Assembly (NCBI GenBank): GCA_903832015.1
Contig: CAIKZX010000096.1
Span: 1-46,601 of the forward strand
DNA from: an uncultured Actinomycetes bacterium
GTDB taxonomy: Bacteria; Actinomycetota; Acidimicrobiia; Acidimicrobiales; RAAP-2
DNA length: 46,601 nucleotides
Direction of reading: 5' to 3'
Shown piece by piece: positions 6,957 through 7,095 of this stretch (the first letter of the stretch is position 1; every line of letters begins with the position of its first letter). A program made the translations under genes and the position numbers. A model generated the notes under the pieces. That model was given only the letters and a program-made list of their open reading frames with translations, was not told the origin of the DNA and searched no databases.

Positions 6957-6986
6957 TAGACGGCCAGACTGCTCGGGGGCTAGGGT
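6957..6986 (+). promoter_or_regulatory. Candidate promoter of the leuA leader: -35-like TAGACG (6957-6962), 18 nt spacer, -10-like TAGGGT (6981-6986)
   Basis: Direct reading. The -10 ends 7 nt before the leader ATG, so the predicted TSS is at or next to the ATG. Confidence 0.5.
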
Positions 6987-6993
6987 GGGGGAG

Positions 6994-7026
6994 ATGACAA
7001 CCACTACCTTGCTACTACTGCACTAG
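6994..7026 (+). CDS. leuL: Leader peptide MTTTTLLLLH (four Thr then four consecutive Leu codons), candidate leuA attenuator peptide
   Basis: ATG ACA ACC ACT ACC TTG CTA CTA CTG CAC TAG, followed by competing hairpins and an intrinsic terminator before leuA. Confidence 0.85.
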   Translation: MTTTTLLLLH

Positions 7027-7051
7027 GGCCGGGCACCGTCATGTCCGACCC
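7026..7051 (+). promoter_or_regulatory. Candidate antiterminator hairpin of the leuA leader
   Basis: GGGCCGGGC (7026-7034) pairs with GTCCGACCC (7043-7051) with one C.A mismatch and one G.U; the 3' arm overlaps the terminator 5' arm. Confidence 0.6.
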
Positions 7052-7073
7052 CCGCGAAGGCGGGGGTTTTTTT
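7048..7073 (+). terminator. Intrinsic terminator/attenuator upstream of leuA
   Basis: CCCCCGC-GAAG-GCGGGGG 7-bp perfect GC stem followed by TTTTTTT. Confidence 0.9.
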
Positions 7074-7095
7074 ATTACCGAGGAGATGTACCCAC

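Follow-up and report, generated by a model that had tools for sequence, protein, structure and literature searches.

A probable leucine-responsive transcription attenuator of two adjacent hairpins upstream of leuA in an uncultured member of the Acidimicrobiales and in its relatives

The leuA gene in the window analyzed here, a 46,601-nt stretch of DNA from an uncultured bacterium of the order Acidimicrobiales, is probably controlled by a ribosome-mediated, leucine-responsive transcription attenuator. A hairpin placed directly after the stop codon of a leucine-rich leader peptide (here called P1) would, when formed, allow read-through into leuA, by an extension into the intrinsic terminator in this species and by abutting the terminator in other members of the order. 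Leader, P1 and terminator were found together upstream of leucine genes in most of the relatives compared, and the arms of both helices co-vary. The original prediction of a leucine attenuator at this site was therefore supported, with all three parts conserved through the genus and beyond.

The leuA gene (7096..8775, forward strand) encodes a 2-isopropylmalate synthase whose sequence matched the TIGR00970 profile with 796 bits (cut-off, 697) and also exceeded the NF002991 cut-off, with 849 bits. It begins 206 nt after the start of a divergent aldo/keto reductase gene (5888-6889, reverse strand), which makes this site the beginning of the leuA transcription unit; farther upstream is serA, and leuDC and greA lie downstream on the other strand. 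Both strands of the window, which comes from an assembly of 1.03 Mb that is 79% complete, were scanned for short ORFs with at least three consecutive leucines near their end and a strong terminator within 60 nt. This arrangement occurred at a single site, and comparable ones were absent from 60 first-order Markov random windows. No Rfam family reached its gathering score in the window, and four relatives gave no match even when E values up to 1 were allowed.

The leader peptide MTTTTLLLLH* is encoded at 6994-7026 (forward strand) by ATG ACA ACC ACT ACC TTG CTA CTA CTG CAC TAG, with the leucine control codons TTG CTA CTA CTG at 7009-7020. The Leu run, LLL or LLLL and 0-2 codons before the stop, is kept across the order. 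The four Thr codons, which had been singled out as an oddity, are present in the window leader but are not conserved, as the closest relatives carry MMTLALLLVH and VTTLALLLVN; in the leaders of the genus, 21% of the residues that come after the start codon and before the Leu run are Thr. All coordinates in the original prediction (leader, Leu codons, TAGGGT, hairpin arms and terminator) proved right on direct reading of the sequence.

A -10 box, TAGGGT (6981-6986, forward strand), is separated from the leader ATG by 7 nt, which implies a transcription start at about 6994, and a -35-like hexamer, TAGACG (6957-6962), lies 18 nt before it and matches at 4/6 positions; a strict sigma-70 scan did not report a promoter at 6957-6986. 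As with the window, a TAnnnT box was located 6-7 nt upstream of the start codon in 69/69 parsed leaders of the genus, against a background of 0.6%. Because the parser gave preference to starts preceded by a -10 box, the precise count carries a slight bias; the result is nevertheless safe, given the low background rate. Additionally, 57 of these 69 leaders have a -35 box that agrees with TTGACA at 4-5 of 6 positions with a spacing of 16-19. The proposal that the leader peptide is itself leaderless is thus strongly supported by promoter placement, and transcription would start at its ATG.

P1 has its core, CGGGCA paired with UGUCCG, at 7030-7047 (forward strand, as are all features given here), directly after the stop codon. 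The terminator, ACCCCCGC-GAAG-GCGGGGGU (7048-7073), was confirmed to consist of seven G-C pairs (7049-7055 with 7060-7066) plus A7048-U7067, followed by a T7 run (7067-7073), and the Shine-Dalgarno sequence of leuA, GAGGAG, lies at 7080-7085. The arms of the antiterminator originally proposed, GGGCCGGGC (7026-7034) and GTCCGACCC (7043-7051), do face each other with 8 pairs, one of them G-U, and one C/A mismatch (7029/7048). In this pairing the GGG at 7026-7028 lengthens P1 through CCC 7049-7051, a boundary trinucleotide that also belongs to the terminator, where it pairs with 7064-7066; the antiterminator and the terminator therefore overlap by 3 nt. Predicted energies were -12.6 kcal/mol for the extended P1, -6.5 kcal/mol for its core and -17.5 kcal/mol for the terminator. 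In RNA folding, which had been suggested as a check, the 87-nt leader RNA folded better than shuffled sequences (z -2.7), and both the P1 core and the terminator formed.

The layout was then followed in relatives. LeuA was present in 144/151 genomes of the family. In 103 of 109 family leuA upstream regions, a leader whose LL or LLL is separated from the stop by 0-2 residues is followed by a P1 that begins at the stop codon and by a GC-rich, T-run terminator; the Leu codons and hairpins are thus kept in close relatives, as the attenuator reading had anticipated. Two genomes of the same genus (G009 and G089; 97% and 94% complete) had no LeuA match at E <= 1e-50, and may be leucine auxotrophs or have assembly gaps. 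P1 begins no more than one nt from the base that follows the stop codon in 108/120 sequences, in a search that allowed starts only a few bases from the stop, and a median of 4 nt separates P1 from the first G-C pair of the terminator.

The same layout was found at most LeuA genes of the order. The leader of a cultured relative, Acidiferrimicrobium (L115), reads MARLIGLLLLV. A covariance model, for which 28 diverse sequences were used, matched 159 of the 199 genomes of the order, almost always once each, and the matches examined sit before LeuA of either the TIGR00970 type found in the window or the TIGR00973 type. Since the leader RNA precedes two distinct LeuA families, it tracks function and not one gene lineage, and its sharing by both among L159-L208 suggests gene replacement behind a conserved regulator. 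In the phylum-wide sample, 25/248 genomes had a model match. Outside the order, matches precede leuS in L164 and L165, which have LLL leaders, and in L174, which has scattered Leu codons; in L169 the match precedes ilvB and the leader is MPCQLNLVLIT. Other phylum relatives (L149-L152, L116 and L118) have Leu-run leaders that lack a T-run terminator.

Co-evolution was assessed by pairing one arm of each helix from every species with the other arm from all species. Arms fitted their own partner far better than foreign ones, with z about -13 for P1 and -12 to -14 for the terminator, and the ilvB set described below agreed with the leuA result. In the alignment of the order, several pairs of P1 also showed compensatory changes. 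Covariation in the leuA relatives, another check proposed with the original prediction, thus spoke for both helices. Eighteen other pairings among leader, loop, arm and downstream regions gave no comparable signal. No clear co-evolution was seen between the leader coding region and the P1 3' arm, between the P1 5' arm and the terminator 5' arm, or between the P1 loop or arms and downstream or Shine-Dalgarno sequence. A pairing of the Leu run with the terminator 3' arm (CUCCU with AGGAG, in some genera) was rejected, as its arms did not co-evolve in a species-specific way (z -0.3 to -1.7) and its direction would also be wrong for starvation. Column-pair covariation in a segment-anchored alignment was uninformative because indels shift P1. 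Among the sequences compared, then, comparative support is limited to two helices, P1 and the terminator.

The overlapping antiterminator of the original prediction is predicted to form in the window RNA and not in that of most relatives. When the window RNA was folded without the terminator 3' arm, the proposed 3+6 bp hairpin formed and held C7049-7051, and L003 and L004 folded likewise, with the P1 extension holding terminator bases. In 113/120 sequences, P1 holds fewer than two nucleotides of the terminator core and the two hairpins are simply adjacent. The overlapping version occurs in only 3/100 congeners, namely the window species and the two species closest to it, and no more species of this type were found among those 100. 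In this three-species clade the GGG:CCC extension, 3 bp beyond the mismatch, is invariant and for that reason has no covariation support.

Within this family and order, the same layout was found before ilvB, where leaders such as ILVLVT* or LVVVVP* are followed by a P1 located at the stop codon and by a terminator 0-5 nt beyond. Automatic parsing recovered this layout in 25/43 ilvB regions and several more were recognized by eye; the leaders with this layout carry Val, Ile and Leu codons. The P1 of ilvB (GCGCACGC/GCGUGCGC and variants) is unrelated in sequence to that of leuA (GGCGAGCG/CGCUCGCC), and its position is identical. The ilvB leader of the window organism itself (contig C28) reads VKINLTVVVVLGAWRR*, running past the Val codons, and its hairpin, CCGGUA..UACCGG, differs from those of its relatives' ilvB leaders. 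As a further attenuated gene, trpE was rejected, with a comparable leader in 0/26 trpE regions.

These features can be joined into a mechanism. With transcription starting at the leader ATG, a ribosome would load directly on the 5' end of the RNA. When leucyl-tRNA is scarce, the ribosome would halt at the first Leu codons with its front edge just before the stop codon, and P1 could form; in the window, P1 would then lengthen through GGG 7026-7028 into CCC 7049-7051, holding the base of the terminator, and the polymerase would read into leuA. When leucine is plentiful, a ribosome at the TAG would cover about 7026-7036 and block P1, and the terminator would fold and stop transcription. In the wider order, P1 would be the same sensor of ribosome position, abutting the terminator at a median gap of 4 nt with no shared bases, and may act sterically by keeping the terminator from zipping up fully in the exit channel of the polymerase.

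The spacing of the parts is consistent with this scheme. A ribosome is assumed to reach about 12 nt beyond the first nucleotide of its A-site codon. The distance from the first Leu codon to the first P1 nucleotide is 12-17 nt in 112/120 sequences, so that a ribosome halted at that codon would adjoin an intact P1. Because a ribosome at the stop codon would cover the P1 5' arm and one at a Leu codon would leave P1 free, P1 can be taken as a readout of ribosome position; read-through upon P1 formation is the sensible direction, as leuA makes leucine. In the minimum-energy fold of the full-length RNA, the terminator and P1 coexist even in the 'stalled' state, and the terminator was retained in such folds of all 101 sequences tested. 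Since both hairpins coexist thermodynamically in both ribosome states, the switch must be kinetic or steric.

That compatibility also leaves room for a P1 that is not antiterminating but acts as a pause or tandem hairpin, either synchronizing ribosome and polymerase or strengthening termination, in which case a starved ribosome on the Leu run would destabilize P1 and lower termination. P1 and the terminator could coexist in every fold and had no core bases in common in 113/120 sequences, and the apex of the first hairpin has been proposed to cause a pause in the Corynebacterium glutamicum ilvBNC attenuator (PMC11857589). Tandem hairpins downstream of gyrA in Mycobacterium smegmatis were reported to raise termination over that of single hairpins (PMC8355165); this effect is opposite to the one proposed for the abutting P1, and we regard it as the main counter-evidence to our reading. 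We still consider such a role for P1 unlikely, given that the 12-17 nt spacing would leave P1 intact with the stalled ribosome just outside, and that in the predicted nascent fold of the window clade the P1 extension takes terminator bases directly.

Two further explanations were considered. The site could be a LEU element as described in other Actinobacteria, with a pseudoknot or a pairing between the Leu run and the leuA Shine-Dalgarno sequence that acts on translation or through a protein; the gene and the Leu-run leader are the same (PMC1262725), and the phylum relatives without a T-run terminator noted above have leaders of this kind. The strong, co-evolving intrinsic terminator and the lack of co-evolution between the Leu run and the Shine-Dalgarno sequence (z -1.0 in the genus and +2.3 in others) make this highly improbable here. 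A constitutive terminator, serving as an insulator or ending a small RNA and not regulated by leucine, would agree with the retention of the terminator in all 101 minimum-energy folds; this reading is nonetheless hardly credible, as the Leu run, the stop-to-P1 spacing and the leaderless promoter are conserved together across the order and the same layout with Val, Ile and Leu codons precedes ilvB. A leucine-responsive attenuator in which a formed P1 gives read-through thus remains the preferred reading.

Enterobacterial leu and trp attenuators are built from overlapping regions that pair 1:2, 2:3 and 3:4. The leuA leader resembles them in its control codons, in the part proposed for ribosome position and in the putative choice between terminator and read-through, and differs in having two supported helices that usually do not overlap and an apparently leaderless RNA. 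Leu-run peptides before leuA, leuS and ilvB are also known from Streptomyces and Corynebacterium (PMC8079986, PMC4046766, PMC5784534). In S. lividans, transcription-start mapping is reported to show leaderless leader peptides (leuL1, leuL2 and ilvL) at leuA, leuS and ilvB (PMC8079986). No typical Rho-independent terminator accompanies LeuL1, the one before leuA, whereas the acidimicrobial leuA leader has one. The LEU element likewise places a Leu-run leader upstream of leuA and was described without a clear terminator, its pseudoknot and Leu-run:Shine-Dalgarno stem standing against the stop-codon hairpin and terminator of the window (PMC1262725). In the relatives, the Leu run did not co-evolve with the leuA Shine-Dalgarno box; as to a possible pseudoknot, the pairings of the P1 loop with downstream sequence showed no clear co-evolution.

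A close likeness is also seen to C. glutamicum ilvBNC, whose leader is translated without a ribosome binding site and whose adjacent hairpins share one boundary trinucleotide, GCC there and, by sequence, CCC 7049-7051 here; competition for it is supported by mutations (PMC11857589). The passage in PMC4046766 that cites Morbach et al. 2000 dates the formation of this leader without a ribosome binding site to that work. In the manner of such a 'fast attenuator', CCC 7049-7051 would pair with either GGG 7026-7028 or GGG 7064-7066, as seen in predicted folds. The C. glutamicum system differs in having three hairpins, including an anti-antiterminator, longer arms and Leu/Val codons, whereas the window leuA has two hairpins, of which P1 immediately follows the stop codon, and most of its relatives have no shared trinucleotide.

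In textbook models of attenuation, the antiterminator must compete for bases of the terminator. The leuA and ilvB leaders of this order have a sensing hairpin and a terminator that are separate co-evolving helices at nearly fixed spacing, and if these leaders are regulated, termination could be switched by hairpin proximity alone. We tentatively suggest, as a possibility short of an expectation, that the order carries a class of two-hairpin leuA/ilvB attenuators, and that other parts of the phylum have leaders of a similar kind before leuS and ilvB. In this class, the position of the ribosome would decide whether a hairpin forms, and that hairpin would control an intrinsic terminator without base sharing, purely by its placement from the stop codon to about 4 nt before the terminator; the window clade would have later acquired, or alone kept, the 3-nt overlap. 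Neither this kind of attenuator nor leaderlessness is new, given the leaders reported from other Actinobacteria. From the sequences compared, what appears to be new is the occurrence across the order of a two-hairpin layout that includes a real terminator and in which antiterminator overlap is not conserved, and no earlier description of attenuation in Acidimicrobiia was found in the literature searched. As the five sources tested had no Rfam match, many genomes could gain an annotation of this layout. Altogether, leader, P1 and terminator would probably let a lake actinobacterium sense leucine through the translating ribosome before the first leucine-specific enzyme is made.

Some minor observations concern individual sequences. 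Further covariance model matches in the window's own genome appear fortuitous and were set aside; the best scored 25 bits and lies on contig C114 next to an unrelated secreted-type protein. Some lineages of the order (L138, L141, L142 and L146) have another type of leader upstream of leuA, ending LLxLRLxxPAx (e.g., MVDRLLVLRLIRPAF), in which the combination of stop-codon hairpin and T-run terminator is missing. A conserved GTTTCTCG lies 3' of the T-run in many congeners (e.g., L005, L009 and L024) and has no co-evolving pairing partner. The terminator 5' arm, CCUCCUG, is invariant in the 28 diverse sequences (alignment A2) with a partner that varies by G-U, which probably reflects G-U drift, and this arm resembles the 16S anti-Shine-Dalgarno sequence.
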